Assembly: GCF_008087625.1 (NCBI RefSeq)
Contig: NZ_CP042997.1
Span: 4,340,001 to 4,404,000 of the forward strand
DNA length: 64,000 bases
Direction: 5' to 3'
Source of the DNA: Aquisphaera giovannonii
GTDB lineage: Bacteria; Planctomycetota; Planctomycetia; Isosphaerales; Isosphaeraceae
The notes under the pieces were generated by a model. That model saw nothing but the letters and a program-made list of their open reading frames with translations, ran no database searches and was not told the DNA's origin. Numbering within the stretch: the first letter of the stretch is position 1; every line of letters begins with the position of its first letter. Below are positions 19,101 to 49,130 of this stretch, one piece after another. A program made the translations under genes and the position numbers.

Positions 19101-20804
19101 GTGGCCTCCTTGTTCGTGATCCAAGGGGCCGACCAGGGGAAGCGATTCGAGTTCCAGACGACCACCGTGGCGCTGGGCCGGGACAACTCGAACGCCATCC
19201 GGCTCCATGATACCGAGGTCTCCCGCCGCCACGCCGAGCTGCGGCAGGACGAGGATTCCTATCGCCTCATCGACCTCGGGTCGGCGAACGGGACGTACGT
19301 CAACGGCCAGCTCGTCTCCCAGGCGCCCCTGCATTCCGGCGACCGCCTCCAGCTCGGCTCGACGATCCTCCTCTACCACGAGGGGGCGACCCGGCCGGCC
19401 CGCGACCTCACCGCCCGCGTGGACCTGCTGGCCAGGAGCAGCCCCGAGGACCGCTCGGCGATCCTGAAGAGCATCCCCTCGGGCGAGGGCTCCCGCGTCC
19501 TCCGCCAGCCGGAGGCCGCCGCCGGATGGCTCAAGGAACGGCTGGCCAGCCTGTCGGTCATGTACCGGGCCACCCAGGCCATCAGCCACGTCCTCGAAAT
19601 CGACGCCCTGCTCCCCCAGATCCTGGAGCTCGTCTTCGAGTCCATCAACGCCGACCGCGGGGCCATCCTCCTGAAGGACGAGGCGGGCCAGCTCGAGCCC
19701 AAGGCCGTCCGGCTGACCAACCCCGATGGGCCCGACGAGCGGATGACGATCTCCAAGACGATCGTGGACTACGTCCTGGAGCAGGGGCAGGGCGTGATCA
19801 CCACCGACGCCCCGGCGGACAAGCGGTTCAGCCCCGCCCAGTCGATCGTGGACTACCACATCCGCGAGGCCATCTGCGTCCCCATCCAGGGCCGGCACAC
19901 GACCCTGGGCGTCCTCTACGCCGACATCCAGTCCGGCGCCATGGTCCTGGCCAACGGGGGCAAGGACGGCCCTCGCGGCAAGTTCTCGCAGGACCACCTC
20001 ATGCTCATGGTCGCGATCGGCCACCAGGCCGGGCTCGCCATCGAGAACACCGCCTTCTACAACGCCAAGATCCAGGCGGAGCGGCTGGCGGCCGTCGGCC
20101 AGACGATCGCCACGCTCTCGCACCACATCAAGAACATCCTCCAGGGCATCCGCGGCGGCTCCTACCTCATCGACATGGGCCTCAACGACAAGGACGAGGC
20201 CATCGTCCGCCGCGGCTGGACGATCGTGGAGAAGAACCAGACGAAGATCTACAACCTCGTCATGGACATGCTCTCGTTCTCCAAGGATCGGGAGCCGGCG
20301 CTCGAGCCGGCGGACCTGAACGAGGTCGTCACCGACGTCGCCGAGCTGATGCACTCCCGCGCCGAGGAACTCGGCGTCAAGCTCGTCACCAGGCCCTGCG
20401 CCGGGATGCCCCGCGTGATGATCGACCCGGAAGGCATCCACCGGGCGCTGCTGAACATCGTCACCAACGCCATCGACGCCAGCGAGGGCCAGCCCGAGGC
20501 GACCGTCACGATCTCCACCGAATGGGTCGCCGAGATGACGACCGCGCGGATCAGGGTGGCCGACAACGGGGTGGGCATCGACGAGGCCGACGTCGCCTCG
20601 ATCTTCCAGATCTTCGCCTCGTCCAAGGGCTCGCGGGGCACCGGCCTGGGCCTGCCGGTCTCGCGCAAGATCGTCGCCGAGCACGGCGGCAACATCACCG
20701 TCCAGTCTCAGCCCGGCCAGGGGGCGACCTTCGTCATCGACCTGCCCATGGCCCGCAAGGCCGGCCCGTCGGAGATGACCGACGGGCTGACCATGATGGG
20801 GTGA
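19101..20804 (+). CDS. FHA-GAF sensor histidine kinase
   Basis: A 567-residue soluble kinase starting with GTG (purine-rich GAGGAGAGA upstream). Residues 1-95 form an FHA domain (VALGRDNSNAIRL, VSRRHAEL, SANGTYVNG), which binds phosphothreonine. Residues about 150-320 form a GAF domain. The dimerisation helix carries the phospho-acceptor His341 in TLSHHIKNILQG, and the ATPase domain has NIVTNAIDAS (N box), VADNGVGID (G1) and GTGLGLPVS (G2). The FHA module suggests cross-talk with Ser/Thr kinases, which are abundant in planctomycetes. No response regulator is adjacent, so it is an orphan kinase here. Confidence 0.93.
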   Translation: MASLFVIQGADQGKRFEFQTTTVALGRDNSNAIRLHDTEVSRRHAELRQDEDSYRLIDLGSANGTYVNGQLVSQAPLHSGDRLQLGSTILLYHEGATRPARDLTARVDLLARSSPEDRSAILKSIPSGEGSRVLRQPEAAAGWLKERLASLSVMYRATQAISHVLEIDALLPQILELVFESINADRGAILLKDEAGQLEPKAVRLTNPDGPDERMTISKTIVDYVLEQGQGVITTDAPADKRFSPAQSIVDYHIREAICVPIQGRHTTLGVLYADIQSGAMVLANGGKDGPRGKFSQDHLMLMVAIGHQAGLAIENTAFYNAKIQAERLAAVGQTIATLSHHIKNILQGIRGGSYLIDMGLNDKDEAIVRRGWTIVEKNQTKIYNLVMDMLSFSKDREPALEPADLNEVVTDVAELMHSRAEELGVKLVTRPCAGMPRVMIDPEGIHRALLNIVTNAIDASEGQPEATVTISTEWVAEMTTARIRVADNGVGIDEADVASIFQIFASSKGSRGTGLGLPVSRKIVAEHGGNITVQSQPGQGATFVIDLPMARKAGPSEMTDGLTMMG

Positions 20805-24046: not shown

Positions 24047-24931
24047 ATGCACTCTTCGATACCGATGTTCCTCAAACACCTGGAGCGGGAGCGGCAAGCG
24101 TCCGCGCATACCCTCCGGTCCTATCAGGATGATCTGGGCCTCTTCCACCGCTACCTGGAGGAGAGCGGCCTGGGGGAGCAGGACCCCGCCGGCCTAGATC
24201 CCGGGCGGCTGCGCCGCTATTCGGCCTGGCTGAACTCGCAGGGCTACGCGGCGACGACGATCGCCCGACGGCTGGCGAGCCTGAGGTCCTACTTCCGGTT
24301 CCTGAGGCGACGCGGCGATGTCGCCGGCGATCCCACGGCGGGCCTCCGCAACCCGAAGCAGCCGAAGAGGCTGCCGCGGCTGCTCCGGGTCGAGGAGGTG
24401 ATCGGCCTCCTGGAGTCGATCCCCGTGGACACCGCCGCCGGGGTCCGGGACCGGACCATGCTCGAGGTCCTCTACGGCGGCGGCCTGCGGGTCAGCGAGC
24501 TGGTGGGCATAGACCGCGACGACCTGGAGCCGGAGGCCCAGCTCGTCCGGGTGCGCGGCAAGGGTCGCCGCGAGCGCCTCTGCCCGACAGGACCCATGGC
24601 TTTTTTCTGGCTCGAGCGGTATCTTCCCTTGCGGTGCCCTCGTCGCCCCGACGAGCCCGCCGTCTTCCTCAATCGCTACGGGACGCGACTCACCACGCGG
24701 AGCGTCGGCCGGCTCCTGGAAGAGCACTTGCTCCGGGCCGGTCTGGCCGGCGCCGCCAGCCCGCACACCCTTCGGCACAGCTTCGCCACCCACCTCCTGG
24801 ACCGGGGCGCCGACCTCCGAAGCGTGCAGGAGCTGCTGGGTCATCGGAAATTGACGACCACACAAATGTATACGCACGTCACGCGGGAACGATTGCTGGA
24901 TATATACCATGGGGCCCATCCCCGCGCCTGA
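24047..24931 (+). CDS. Tyrosine recombinase of the XerC/XerD type
   Basis: A 294-residue site-specific recombinase, the normal Xer length. The N-terminal SAM-like DNA-binding domain begins FLKHLERERQASAHTLRSY. The catalytic set is complete: Arg148 (GLRVSEL), Lys172 (GKGRRER), His240 and Arg243 (HTLRHSF), His266 (LGHRKL) and the nucleophile Tyr275 (TQMYTHV). Xer enzymes resolve chromosome dimers at dif; the family also includes phage-type integrases, but there are no mobile genes around it and the sequence is Xer-like throughout. Starts are possible at 24047 or 24065. C-versus-D assignment is not possible from this window alone. Confidence 0.93.
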   Translation: MHSSIPMFLKHLERERQASAHTLRSYQDDLGLFHRYLEESGLGEQDPAGLDPGRLRRYSAWLNSQGYAATTIARRLASLRSYFRFLRRRGDVAGDPTAGLRNPKQPKRLPRLLRVEEVIGLLESIPVDTAAGVRDRTMLEVLYGGGLRVSELVGIDRDDLEPEAQLVRVRGKGRRERLCPTGPMAFFWLERYLPLRCPRRPDEPAVFLNRYGTRLTTRSVGRLLEEHLLRAGLAGAASPHTLRHSFATHLLDRGADLRSVQELLGHRKLTTTQMYTHVTRERLLDIYHGAHPRA

Positions 24932-25393
24932 CACAACGCGTCCGGCGTCACCTTCCAGCCGAGATTCTCCCGATCCTCACGGAATCCCGAGATCAGACCC
25001 CACGGAAACTTGTTCATCTACGCAAGGGAGCACGCCTTGTAAAGCGGCGTCCTTTCCGGAGGGCCCTCATGGCCTGGAGGCGGCGTCGGCATCGATCTTG
25101 ATTGGGACCGGGGTGGCAACGGAGTCCATGCCGAATTTGACGGGCTTGCATCCATGGCATAGGTGTTTATTGAGAGCGACGTACCGCGGCCCGAAGCGAC
25201 GGGCCGCGGCCGCCGCGACGAATCCTCGAAACGTCCAGGGAAGCCATCTTGCGAGTCAACTGCGTGGGTTGTGCCTCGCCTGGTTTCGCCGCCCCGGGGC
25301 CCGTGCGGCGCATCGGGACCCGGCCGAACCTCAGGGAAGATGCACCCGGCCTCGTGCTCTCTCGCGACAGAGCGTGAGCGGAGAGAATGACAC
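24932..25393. other. Spacer with a possible small coding remnant
   Basis: The stretch between the recombinase and the NtrC-like regulator. On the minus strand, 25255 to 25067 reads as a 62-codon open frame with protein-like sequence (FGPRYVALNKHLCHGC, then PVKFGMDSVATPVPIKID) ending at TGA, but it has no ATG/GTG/TTG start before Met43 and an in-frame TGA directly upstream. It may be the tail of a decayed gene. The rest shows nothing. Confidence 0.3.
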
Positions 25394-27037
25394 ATGCGTA
25401 AGTTCCGGATCCTCATCGTTTGCCCCGATCCGCAAGGGCTGGCCCTGCTGACGTCGATGCTGAAGTCGCTGGGCCACCTGATCGAAGAGGCCTCGACGGA
25501 TCGCGGCGCCGTGCGGCTGATGGAGCGGAGCCCGATGGACCTGGTGCTGGCGAGCGTGGACCCCGGCGAGAGCGAGGCGCTGGAGCTGCTCTCGTACACC
25601 CGCCGCAAGTACTCGGAAGTGCCGGTCATCCTGATGTTCCCGAGGGCGCATCCCGACCGGGCCAAGGAGGCCCTGCGGCTGGGGGCGATGGCGGTGCTGA
25701 AGTACCCGGTGCCGGCGGCCGAGCTCCGCGCCGCGGTGCTCCAGGCCCTGGAGCAGTGCCAGCCCCGGGCGGCCGACGGCCGGGCCGCGACGCCGCACGC
25801 CGGCCTCTCGTCGCGGCCCCAGGCCTACGCCGCGACGGCCGCGGCCCCGGCGTCGTCCCAGGGCGTCGCGCCGGCGAACCTCTTCGCGATGCCCATGTCC
25901 TTCGCCTCGCCCGCACGCCTGCCCTCCTACGGCACCCCGGGCCTGCAGTCGATGGATCCGGTCGACGGCGTCCTCCGCCCCGTCGACACGCCGGCCGCCT
26001 TCCCGACCTCGCCCGCCCGGCCCGCCCCCCGCGAGGCGGAGCTGGTCACCACCGATCCCGGCCTCCGCCAGGTGATCGAGCTGGCCGCCACCCTCGCGGG
26101 CACCTCGGCCCCGGTCCTGATCGTCGGCGAGCCCGGGACCGGCAAGTCGCTCCTCGCCCAGATCCTCCACGACGGCGGCGGCCCGCCGGATAGGCCGTTC
26201 GTCGTCCTCCGGGCGGGGGACCTGGAGGAGCCCGAGGCCGACGGCGAGGGCGAGGAGCCGGAGCCCGCGGCTCGCCGCGGCGCCGCGGCGTCCGCCCTGA
26301 CCGAGTGGGCGAGGAAGCTCGACTCCGCCCGCGGCGGCACCCTCTTCATCGAGGAAGTCGGCGCCCTCCCGGCCGAGATCCAGCTCCAGCTCCAGCGCGA
26401 GTTCCAGTATCGCGACATCGAGGTCGCCGCGGGCCGCGCCCGGCACAACTCCCAGCCCGGCGTCCGGTTCATCCTCTCCACGAGCGAGAACCTCCCCGCC
26501 GCGGTGGAGCAGGGGAGGTTCCGCCCCGAGCTCTACCACCGCATCAGCGCCCTCTCCCTGATGGTCCCCCCGCTCCGGCTCCGCGGCACCGACGTCGAGC
26601 TGCTCGCCGAGCAGTTCCGGGCCCGCTTCGCCCACGAGTTCCACAAGGATGTCGTGGGCTTCACCCGCGACGCCCTGGAAGCCCTCCAGAAGCACGAGTG
26701 GCCCGGCAACGTCCGCGAGCTCCAGGGCGTCATCCAGCGCGCCGTCTCGCGCTGCTCCAGCCCCCGGATCACCTCCAGCCATCTCACCCCGATCCTCAAC
26801 CTCCAGCGCCAGGCCCGCGCCGCCGCCGGGACGTCGGGGCCCCACGTCCCGATGGGCATCCGGCCGCTCAAGGAGGCCCTCGAGGAGCCCGAGAAGCGGA
26901 TCATCATCCAGGCCCTCCAGGCGTTCAACTGGAACCGCCAGGAGACCGCCCGGGTGCTCGACATCAACCGGACCACGCTCTACAAGAAGATGAAGAAGTA
27001 CGGCCTCCTGGTGGACGAGCCGATCTGGGCCGGCTGA
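25394..27037 (+). CDS. NtrC-like AAA+ regulator with degenerate receiver and no GAFTGA
   Basis: A 547-residue protein. Residues 1-115 fold like a receiver, but the phospho-acceptor Asp is Ser54 (DLVLASVDPG); Lys103 is retained (VLKYP). An Ala/Pro-rich linker follows to about residue 210. The AAA+ domain has Walker A GEPGTGKS (245-252) and Walker B LFIEEVG (Glu320-Glu321). The segment where sigma54 activators carry GAFTGA is instead acidic and Ala-rich (EEPEADGEGEEPEPAARRGA). The C-terminus is a Fis-type helix-turn-helix (NRQETARVLDINRTTLYKKM). It probably binds DNA and ATP but should not contact sigma54 in the usual way; Asp phosphorylation is unlikely. Confidence 0.9.
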   Translation: MRKFRILIVCPDPQGLALLTSMLKSLGHLIEEASTDRGAVRLMERSPMDLVLASVDPGESEALELLSYTRRKYSEVPVILMFPRAHPDRAKEALRLGAMAVLKYPVPAAELRAAVLQALEQCQPRAADGRAATPHAGLSSRPQAYAATAAAPASSQGVAPANLFAMPMSFASPARLPSYGTPGLQSMDPVDGVLRPVDTPAAFPTSPARPAPREAELVTTDPGLRQVIELAATLAGTSAPVLIVGEPGTGKSLLAQILHDGGGPPDRPFVVLRAGDLEEPEADGEGEEPEPAARRGAAASALTEWARKLDSARGGTLFIEEVGALPAEIQLQLQREFQYRDIEVAAGRARHNSQPGVRFILSTSENLPAAVEQGRFRPELYHRISALSLMVPPLRLRGTDVELLAEQFRARFAHEFHKDVVGFTRDALEALQKHEWPGNVRELQGVIQRAVSRCSSPRITSSHLTPILNLQRQARAAAGTSGPHVPMGIRPLKEALEEPEKRIIIQALQAFNWNRQETARVLDINRTTLYKKMKKYGLLVDEPIWAG

Positions 27038-42832: not shown

Positions 42833-44281
42833 ATGGCGAAGATCCTGGTGATCGACGACGAGTCCTCCATCTTGCACGCCTTCCGGCGGGCGTTCGACGA
42901 CCCGGACGACCAGCTCCTGACGGCCGCCGACGCCGAGCAGGGCCTCGCCCTGGTCTCCGGCGCCGAGCCCGACGTGGTCGTGCTCGACCTGAACCTGCCC
43001 GATGCCCACGGCCTGGACGTCTACCGGCGGGTGCGCGCGATCGACGCCCGGATCCCGGTGATCTTCATCACCGGGCACGGCACCACGGAGACGGCCATCG
43101 AGGCGATGAAGCAGGGGGCCTTCGACTACCTGCTCAAGCCGCTGGAGCTGGCCCACGTGCGCGACCTGGTCGAGCGCGCGGCCGAGATCAGCCGGCTGGG
43201 GCGCGTCCCGGCGGTCGTCCCCGACGAGCCCGTGCCGGCCGGCACGTCGGCCGACATGCTGGTGGGCCGCTCCGCCCCCATGCAGGAGGTCTACAAGGCG
43301 ATCGGGCGGGTGGCGCCGCAGGACCTCGCCGTGCTGGTCCTGGGCGAGAGCGGCACGGGCAAGGAGCTCGTGGCCCGCGCCATCTACCAGCACAGCCGCC
43401 GCGCCGCCGGGCCGTTCCTGGCGGTGAACTGCGCCGCGATCCCCGAGACGCTGCTCGAGTCCGAGCTTTTCGGCCACGAGAAGGGCGCGTTCACCGGCGC
43501 CGACCGGCGGCGGATCGGCAAGTTCGAGCAATGCTCCCGCGGGACGCTGTTCCTCGACGAGATCGGGGACATGACGCCGCTGACGCAGGCGAAGCTGCTC
43601 CGCGTCCTCCAGGACGGCCGGTTCGAGCGGGTCGGCGGCAACGAGACGGTCCAGGCCGACGTGCGGGTCATCGCCGCGACCAACCGCGACCTGGCCCAGA
43701 TGGCGGCCGCGGGCGAGTTCCGAGAGGACCTCTACTACCGGCTCGGCGTGGTCACGATCACGCTGCCGCCGCTGCGGGAGCGGGCCGGGGACCTCCCGCT
43801 CCTGGTGGACCACTTCCTCAGGCGGTTCAGCCCCGAGATGGGCAAGGAGGTCGTGCAGGTGGCCCCGGAGGCGATCGAGCTGCTGGGCCGGTACGCCTGG
43901 CCGGGGAACCTCCGCGAGCTCCAGAGCGTGCTCCGCCAGGCGCTCCTGAGGGCCCAGGGGCCGGTCCTCCTCGCCGACTTCCTCCCCCCCGCGGTCCGCG
44001 GCGAGGCCCCGCCCGAGGCCGGGCCCCGGGCGGCGTCGATCGACTGGGAGGAGTTCCTGGACGAGCGGCTCCGGGCCGGCTCCCGGGACCTCTACGCCGA
44101 ATCCCTGGCCCTGATGGAGCGATCGCTCGTCTCGCGGGTCCTCCGCCACACGGGGGGCAACCAGCTCCAGGCCGCGAAGATCCTGGGCATCACCCGGGGC
44201 AGCCTGCGGACGAAGATCCGGACCCTCGGCATCACCATCGGCCGGTCCGTGGCCTCGGGCGACGACCCGCCGGGGCGCTGA
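42833..44281 (+). CDS. Sigma54-dependent response regulator, NtrC/AtoC type
   Basis: A 482-residue activator with all three modules intact. The receiver has the acidic pair IDDES and phospho-acceptor Asp52 (VVVLDLNLPD), with Lys in YLLKPLE. The AAA+ domain has Walker A GESGTGKE (from residue 171), GAFTGA (218-223) for sigma54 contact and Walker B TLFLDEIGDM. The C-terminal Fis helix-turn-helix is GNQLQAAKILGITRGSLRTK. It should activate sigma54 promoters when phosphorylated by the kinase encoded three bases upstream. Its targets are unknown. It contrasts with the degenerate homologue at 25.4 kb. Confidence 0.96.
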   Translation: MAKILVIDDESSILHAFRRAFDDPDDQLLTAADAEQGLALVSGAEPDVVVLDLNLPDAHGLDVYRRVRAIDARIPVIFITGHGTTETAIEAMKQGAFDYLLKPLELAHVRDLVERAAEISRLGRVPAVVPDEPVPAGTSADMLVGRSAPMQEVYKAIGRVAPQDLAVLVLGESGTGKELVARAIYQHSRRAAGPFLAVNCAAIPETLLESELFGHEKGAFTGADRRRIGKFEQCSRGTLFLDEIGDMTPLTQAKLLRVLQDGRFERVGGNETVQADVRVIAATNRDLAQMAAAGEFREDLYYRLGVVTITLPPLRERAGDLPLLVDHFLRRFSPEMGKEVVQVAPEAIELLGRYAWPGNLRELQSVLRQALLRAQGPVLLADFLPPAVRGEAPPEAGPRAASIDWEEFLDERLRAGSRDLYAESLALMERSLVSRVLRHTGGNQLQAAKILGITRGSLRTKIRTLGITIGRSVASGDDPPGR

Positions 44282-48859: not shown

Positions 48860-48942
48860 TCGCGGGGCCCGCGACGCGAGGGCGACCGGCGGGCGGATCG
48901 TTCCTTGTGGCAGGAGTCGGCGATCGTTAACCTATCCTCGAG

Positions 48943-49118
48943 CGATGGGTGCCCGCCCCGGCCCGAGGCCGGCGGCGGGAGAATAGGGAAGCCGGTGAGA
49001 ATCCGGCGCGGGGCCGCCGCTGTAATCGGCCAGGCAACGGACATCAGAACCACTGCCGTCAGGCGGGAAGGTCGTCCGGGTGCCGCGACGAGCCGAGAGC
49101 CAGAAGACCTGCCCATCG
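48943..49118 (+). ncRNA. Cobalamin riboswitch
   Basis: The conserved core is present in order: AATAGGGAAGCCGGTGAGAA, TCCGGCGCGGGGCCGCCGCT, GTAATCGG, ACCACTGCC, GGGAAGG, and the B12 box AGCCAGAAGACCTGCC (about 49098-49113). P1 closes by CGATGGG (48943-48949) with CCCATCG (49112-49118). It binds adenosyl- or methylcobalamin derivatives. It lies 141 bases upstream of a DUF1559 gene on the same strand, which is therefore the presumed target. Confidence 0.93.
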
Positions 49119-49130
49119 TCGCGACGTCGA

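Follow-up and report, generated by a model that had tools for sequence, protein, structure and literature searches.

Family-wide loss of the phosphorylation site and the GAFTGA loop in an NtrC-type regulator of Isosphaeraceae

The window, a 64,000-nucleotide stretch of the Aquisphaera giovannonii genome (family Isosphaeraceae, contig NZ_CP042997.1), carries at 25394..27037 (+) a gene for a regulator of 547 residues with no stop inside its frame. Pfam places a receiver, an AAA+ domain and a Fis-type helix-turn-helix (HTH) in the order found in sigma54-dependent group I enhancer-binding proteins. The receiver (residues 1-122, 25394..25759 (+)) matches Response_reg at 34.7 bits (cut-off 30.2), the AAA+ domain with its lid (residues 213-476, 26030..26821 (+)) matches Sigma54_activat (92.7 bits) and AAA_lid_14 (74.2 bits), and the HTH (residues 493-538, 26870..27007 (+)) matches HTH_8 (60.3 bits), in line with a preliminary description of this DNA that reported the Fis DNA-binding domain as kept. 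The protein passes the Sigma54_activat cut-off, and a name taken from that match alone would mislead. Directly upstream lies a gene for a XerC-type tyrosine recombinase (24047..24931 (+)), followed 258 nt before the regulator's start codon by a conserved sigma70-like promoter block (TTTGACG ... TGRCATA, 25136..25181 (+)). A histidine kinase gene at 19101..20804 (+), its domains read by eye, is a putative partner at most. The window also contains a tRNA-Met gene, a gene for another enhancer-binding protein with an intact GAFTGA (43205-44251 (+)) and a cobalamin riboswitch (48930-49130 (+), 96.5 bits).

The AlphaFold model is confident in the receiver, the AAA+ domain and the HTH, poor in the linkers (residues 127-213 and 479-492) and lower around residues 281-290, the former loop-1 region. 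Structural matches include NtrC1 (1ny5, Z 25.9, rmsd 21.0, 360 aligned) and VpsR (7v2b, Z 24.0, rmsd 14.3, 354 aligned), the latter covering most of the length; the large rmsd values go with differing domain placement.

By sequence and fold (Pfam, alignment, AlphaFold and structural search) the N-terminal domain is a receiver without the phosphotransfer residues, which fits the pseudo-receiver (aspartate-less) class. All five catalytic positions are replaced: Ser stands at position 54, where the phospho-Asp is expected, C10-P11 at the acidic pair and F82 at the Thr/Ser position, and Y104 aligns with the Lys. The preliminary description had named the Asp only; that loss is confirmed, and the acidic pair, Thr/Ser and Lys have gone with it. 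Across an alignment of 39 orthologues the phospho-Asp is absent throughout (24 Gly, 9 Ser, 2 Ala, 2 Cys, 2 Trp), so that the missing Asp is common to all and Ser itself to nine, and five further orthologues have Gly or Leu there. The acidic pair is replaced mostly by His, Cys or Tyr plus Pro (Pro in 36/39), the Thr/Ser by Phe in 37/39, and the Lys by Tyr (25/39) or Phe (13/39). Eight receiver residues are invariant in 39/39, and seven of them (G97, P105, A108, R112, A113, V115 and Q117) span the end of alpha4 to alpha5 in the AlphaFold model. The alpha4-beta5-alpha5 face forms the dimer surface of most pseudo-receivers of known structure, and Asp-less receivers make up ~2.0% of receivers sampled (excerpts of PMC12632262). 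Because seven of the eight invariant residues lie in this region, the pseudo-receiver would keep the protein in a fixed dimeric or oligomeric state.

The P-loop of the AAA+ domain is intact, with its Lys present in 38/39 orthologues, and the Arg fingers are kept in 37/39 and 35/39, so that the protein may still assemble into rings and hydrolyse some ATP. In Walker B the usual LDE has become IEE; the Asp of this motif is found in 23/39 orthologues, the position varying among D, E, H, S, K, Q and A. The sensor-I Asn is Ser364 in this protein and is Asn in 0/39 orthologues, compared with 38/39 rows of the sister clade described below. The earlier statement that Walker A and B are kept therefore stands for the P-loop but not for Walker B. 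GAFTGA is missing from 39/39 orthologues and from 5/5 further ones, as first reported for this copy. A variable segment (residues 274-308, 26213..26317 (+)) occupies the place of loop 1. It contains no GAFT-like string in any of the 39 orthologues; in 15 of them a loose LFG pattern of the former loop can be matched. Conservation within the ATPase is lowest in this segment (0.32 versus a mean of 0.63-0.68). The preliminary description saw GAFTGA replaced here by an acidic, Ala-rich stretch; the segment ranges from 14 to 59 residues and is at least 30% acidic in three of 39 orthologues (29% in the A. giovannonii protein), a variability that does not support a meaningful replacement. Judged from the alignment, the acidic segment is best read as a variable, low-constraint scar and not as a conserved device.

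Phosphorylation or sigma54 might still be reached through other residues, for example D56, two positions on from the lost Asp, or a different loop. D56 is Asp or Glu in 38/39 orthologues, the acid D12, one position past the lost acidic pair, is retained as Asp or Glu in 36/39, and the Sigma54_activat model still matches. Against this stand the replacement of the receiver acidic pair, Thr and Lys and the unconserved loop-1 segment, and we regard such a rescue as highly improbable. The residues support the earlier proposal that this regulator would be neither controlled by standard phosphorylation nor in contact with sigma54.

We searched 45 Isosphaeraceae genomes for orthologues. At E <= 1e-70, 39 genomes contained one; a laxer search of the remaining six added five, one of them truncated by a contig end, and gave nothing callable as an orthologue in the sixth genome (77% complete). 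The gene is thus present in 44/45 genomes, and 44/44 orthologues lack both the phospho-Asp and GAFTGA, which excludes chance or assembly error. None of the 39 aligned orthologues has an internal stop; one row of the alignment used for the residue counts (G005) ends before the HTH. In 16 pairs (Nei-Gojobori; synonymous sites near saturation in some), dN/dS was 0.01-0.15 in the receiver and <=0.05 in the HTH, where one pair gave no computable value. The two parts of the AAA+ domain gave 0-0.66 and 0.05-0.28, the lid 0.05-0.18, the loop-1 segment 0.06-0.82 and the linker 0.15-1.44. Purifying selection is strong on the receiver and the HTH and acts on the AAA+ parts too, to a lesser degree. Mean pairwise identity among the Isosphaeraceae orthologues was 0.62 in the receiver, 0.46 in the AAA+ domain and 0.92 in the near-invariant HTH, versus 0.63, 0.77 and 0.77 in the canonical sister clade and 0.30, 0.72 and 0.72 in seven Gemmatales-type relatives. 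The receiver was more conserved than the ATPase in 670/700 Isosphaeraceae pairs, 4/528 sister pairs and 0/21 Gemmatales-type pairs (700 of 741 Isosphaeraceae and 528 of 741 sister pairs were used, the remainder overlapping too little). Constraint is inverted in the Isosphaeraceae family relative to the sister clade.

These data bear on whether the gene is relaxed and decaying, retained by chance. The AAA+ domain has changed unevenly among lineages, as the variety of residues at the Walker B Asp position illustrates, but the gene is kept in nearly all genomes without internal stops and its receiver and HTH have dN/dS far below 1. The preliminary description held that homologues with intact Asp and GAFTGA would mark this copy as simply decaying. 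Such homologues exist, as the canonical sister clade; simple decay is nevertheless rejected, because all 44 orthologues found share the loss and purifying selection acts on receiver and HTH. We consider chance retention the least probable of the alternatives weighed here; in all probability the gene is not dying but encodes a regulator put to a new use.

For the origin of the family, the best 80 of 147 relatives were kept. A maximum likelihood tree of the AAA+/HTH part (66 rows, including 20 of the 39 orthologues, 21 sister proteins and six of the seven Gemmatales-type relatives) was rooted at its midpoint, and the term sister assumes a root outside the two groups. The Isosphaeraceae orthologues fall on one side of a branch with support 100/100 and are joined to a canonical planctomycete clade at 99/96. 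This nearest clade (for example L060 and L091) has the same domain order and differs in that its receiver active site, Walker B, sensor I and GAFTGA-type loop are intact in nearly all members. The receiver Asp is present in 33 of the 34 sister receivers in view (five of the 39 sister rows are without a receiver in view); one sister protein (L101) has Glu in place of Asp and a GSFTGA loop. The six Gemmatales-type proteins in the tree fall outside the Isosphaeraceae and sister grouping. All seven such relatives (L094, L098, L100, L102, L103, L106 and L109; five are named as Gemmatales or Gemmataceae) lack the phospho-Asp and have Trp at the receiver Lys position, and their loop is GAFTGA in six and GAFAGA in one (L100), suggesting that they lost phosphorylation and kept the sigma54 loop. 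A single receiver loss uniting Isosphaeraceae and Gemmatales-type proteins in one clade is weakly disfavoured (AU p 0.029; the branches are long). Among the loci examined the double loss occurs in Isosphaeraceae only, and the planctomycete-specific mechanism offered in the preliminary description is too wide a label. Sigma54 control itself has not been lost from A. giovannonii, since one sigma54 gene is present in its genome and 15 of the 16 AAA+ paralogues found there, with 150 of 166 candidates scored, carry a GAFTGA-type motif. A second own-genome paralogue without GAFTGA (L015, G000:C1:6111547-6112575) sits on a very long branch.

Gene order around the regulator is conserved. In 42/42 loci with enough DNA, xerC is the immediate upstream neighbour in the same orientation; these loci comprise 37 of the 39 orthologues (two are cut by contig ends) and 5/5 further ones. 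Within the fetched DNA, a thioesterase-like gene is found upstream in 27/39 loci and a histidine kinase gene resembling the one at 19101..20804 in 14/39; a tRNA-Met gene lies on the upstream side of 19/35 scanned loci. A cognate kinase retained as one partner common to Isosphaeraceae and the sister clade was considered and dropped, the proteins of the kinase cluster differing in make-up. The regulator's sigma70-like block (TTTGACG ... TGACATA) scored above 12 bits in 22 of 38 upstream regions (39 genomes with G014 left out), while the best of 190 shuffled regions reached -4.4; the block had been picked from an alignment of some of the scored regions, and the score is therefore a measure of conservation and no independent test. 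Several of the other 16 upstream regions show TTTGACG by eye. In the 5' leader, a block at window positions 25225-25300 is conserved in about five genomes (G000, G001, G002, G027 and part in G013), may form a small hairpin and occurs as a single copy in the genome; its best Rfam match, at 10.6 bits against a cut-off of 43, is not convincing. The constant neighbour, together with the Fis-type HTH, could mean that the protein is tied to xerC as a DNA-architecture or replication/segregation factor and is no transcription factor. Plain conserved gene order would, however, produce the same adjacency, as the thioesterase-like and tRNA-Met genes are also found upstream in many loci, and the regulator gene has its own promoter block; we hold this role to be very unlikely.

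The recognition helix offered a route to binding sites. Its sequence, NRTTLYKKMKKY, is found in 37/39 orthologues and 36/40 sister proteins, and the shorter TTLYKKMKK in 0/16 own-genome paralogues. In the sister clade an exact TGTTG-N8-CAACA dyad precedes the kinase-regulator pair in 8/9 Phycisphaerae-like loci (the ninth is L085) and the regulator in 3/24 Schlesneria-like loci, both terms being contig-group labels borne as names by only some contigs. Most of these dyads adjoin sigma70-like promoters (by eye). Over 16 sister genomes the dyad gave 133 matches versus 71 for a reversed control and was commoner than the control in 13 genomes, lower in one and equal in two. From its position, the dyad is a candidate enhancer that the sister regulator would use. 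Across the 45 Isosphaeraceae genomes it was not enriched (342 versus 390 for the reversed control). Around the 39 loci (81,927 nt) it occurred three times with at most one mismatch, where five control palindromes averaged 0.4, and 19 times versus 16.4 at two mismatches; the A. giovannonii genome has two exact copies versus none for the control, about chance by a hand estimate. A shortened form lies upstream of xerC in 3/36 loci (control words 0 to 1), where three other four-letter dyads are commoner (15, 10 and 4 loci); none of 38 regulator orthologues has the shortened form upstream. Dyads upstream of the regulator gene reached at most 4/38 regions, with a null of up to 3, and no operator was found there. 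Strong dyads upstream of xerC (16/36 loci; 36 of 39 kept) look like tRNA arms and were dropped as an operator because tRNA-Met genes occupy this region in many loci. By these motif counts, an operator common to the Isosphaeraceae protein and the sister clade may be taken as a lead only. We find it doubtful that the protein has kept a TGTTG-N8-CAACA-like specificity and governs a small sigma70 regulon that includes xerC, a former activator turned chromosome-maintenance regulator.

The same evidence bears on a role as a brake, in which the protein would occupy the enhancer sites of canonical activators, or join mixed rings with them, and be unable to contact sigma54. The recognition helix common to the canonical sister clade, the partial retention of AAA+ assembly residues and a genome that also encodes sigma54 and numerous activators bearing a GAFTGA-type loop would suit a brake. 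However, TTLYKKMKK occurs in no own paralogue found and the sister dyad is not enriched, so no common sites are evident, and we consider a brake unlikely.

The sister dyads also led to a candidate RNA. We examined 37 further sites (34 regions) of the 133 forward matches, of which 17 lie outside and 20 inside open reading frames of at least 200 aa. Using our own sigma54 and sigma70 search patterns built from consensus sequences, a strong sigma54 promoter match was found near 7/17 outside sites (six genomes), at a near-constant distance, and near 0/20 inside sites. The same sigma54-like promoters head a conserved RNA-like element with a predicted fold of 27 pairs, six of them changed on both sides; with a covariation term of +1.17, the alignment gives no proof of RNA structure. 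A covariance model of six sequences and 135 positions found the element in a seventh genome outside the training set (G054, E 7.8e-19), where a sigma54-like promoter accompanies it together with two dyads that each have one mismatch and are spaced by 92 bp. The candidate sigma54-dependent noncoding RNA (L287-L293, near position 1500; L253, L259, L262, L265, L267, L269) thus occurs in 7 of 33 genomes searched, with a TGGCAY-type promoter, upstream TGTTG-N8-CAACA dyads (paired at 91-92 bp with at most one mismatch in 6/7 genomes) and a GGA-rich stretch. The model had no match in 17 Isosphaeraceae and nine other sister-type genomes, Rfam had none at the candidate's position, and we found no description of it in the open-access literature searched. 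A regulatory RNA that depends on sigma54 and enhancer-binding proteins is known from Vibrio (Qrr1; excerpts of PMC10162802).

Read from the sequences, the receiver catalytic residues are replaced, GAFTGA is lost, the hydrolysis residues are changed, receiver and HTH are under selection and the nearest clade is canonical. We consider it likely that the protein is a DNA-binding regulator of sigma70 promoters, independent of phosphorylation and of sigma54 and converted from a canonical sigma54 activator. The conversion of this enhancer-binding response regulator would have taken place in the Isosphaeraceae ancestor. In the proposed mechanism the protein, held together by its pseudo-receiver, would bind ATP and hydrolyse it weakly or not at all, and its Fis HTH would bind sites at sigma70 promoters. 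Repression would be its most likely action there, at a little under an even chance; alternatively, it may activate by contact like R. capsulatus NtrC or VpsR. Its activity would be set by protein amount, a ligand or a partner and not by a kinase, although, given the histidine kinase upstream in 14/39 loci, the protein may be linked to a kinase by other means.

Among known enhancer-binding proteins, TyrR and DhaR lack a receiver altogether, and FleQ has AAA+ and Fis HTH domains and keeps both GAFTGA and sigma54 activation at flagellar promoters. FleQ of Pseudomonas resembles the Isosphaeraceae protein in being a pseudo-receiver protein that dimerises without phosphorylation, and differs from it in its GAFTGA; its receiver dimer is the named exception to the alpha4-beta5-alpha5 rule (excerpts of PMC12632262). 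TyrR, DhaR and HupR are former sigma54 activators with a broken GAFTGA and sigma70 dependence (excerpts of PMC3162934), and the likeness lies in an AAA+ domain of sigma54-activator type that has lost this motif; the HupR receiver has a phospho state (a title cited in PMC3162934), unlike the Isosphaeraceae receiver without phospho-Asp. VpsR of Vibrio cholerae and the NtrC proteins of R. capsulatus and Caulobacter are likewise NtrC-type proteins without GAFTGA that are reported to act at sigma70 promoters, but they keep and use the receiver Asp (excerpts of PMC10274813), whereas the Isosphaeraceae orthologues have lost the active site. The orphan NtrC-type protein XibR was dropped as a parallel because it keeps Asp and GAFTGA (excerpts of PMC5130282). 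We found no description of an NtrC-type family with both features lost throughout in the open-access literature searched, and no such proteins in 12 of 20 passages of a paper that mentions both GAFTGA and planctomycetes. The Isosphaeraceae family amounts to a natural experiment in which the residues for phospho-control and sigma54 contact are gone while receiver and HTH are held tighter than the ATPase, making testable both the role of a pseudo-receiver once catalysis is gone and the shift of an enhancer-binding protein from sigma54 to sigma70. The kind of protein is already known from TyrR, HupR, VpsR and FleQ; the family-wide double loss is new within the literature searched.
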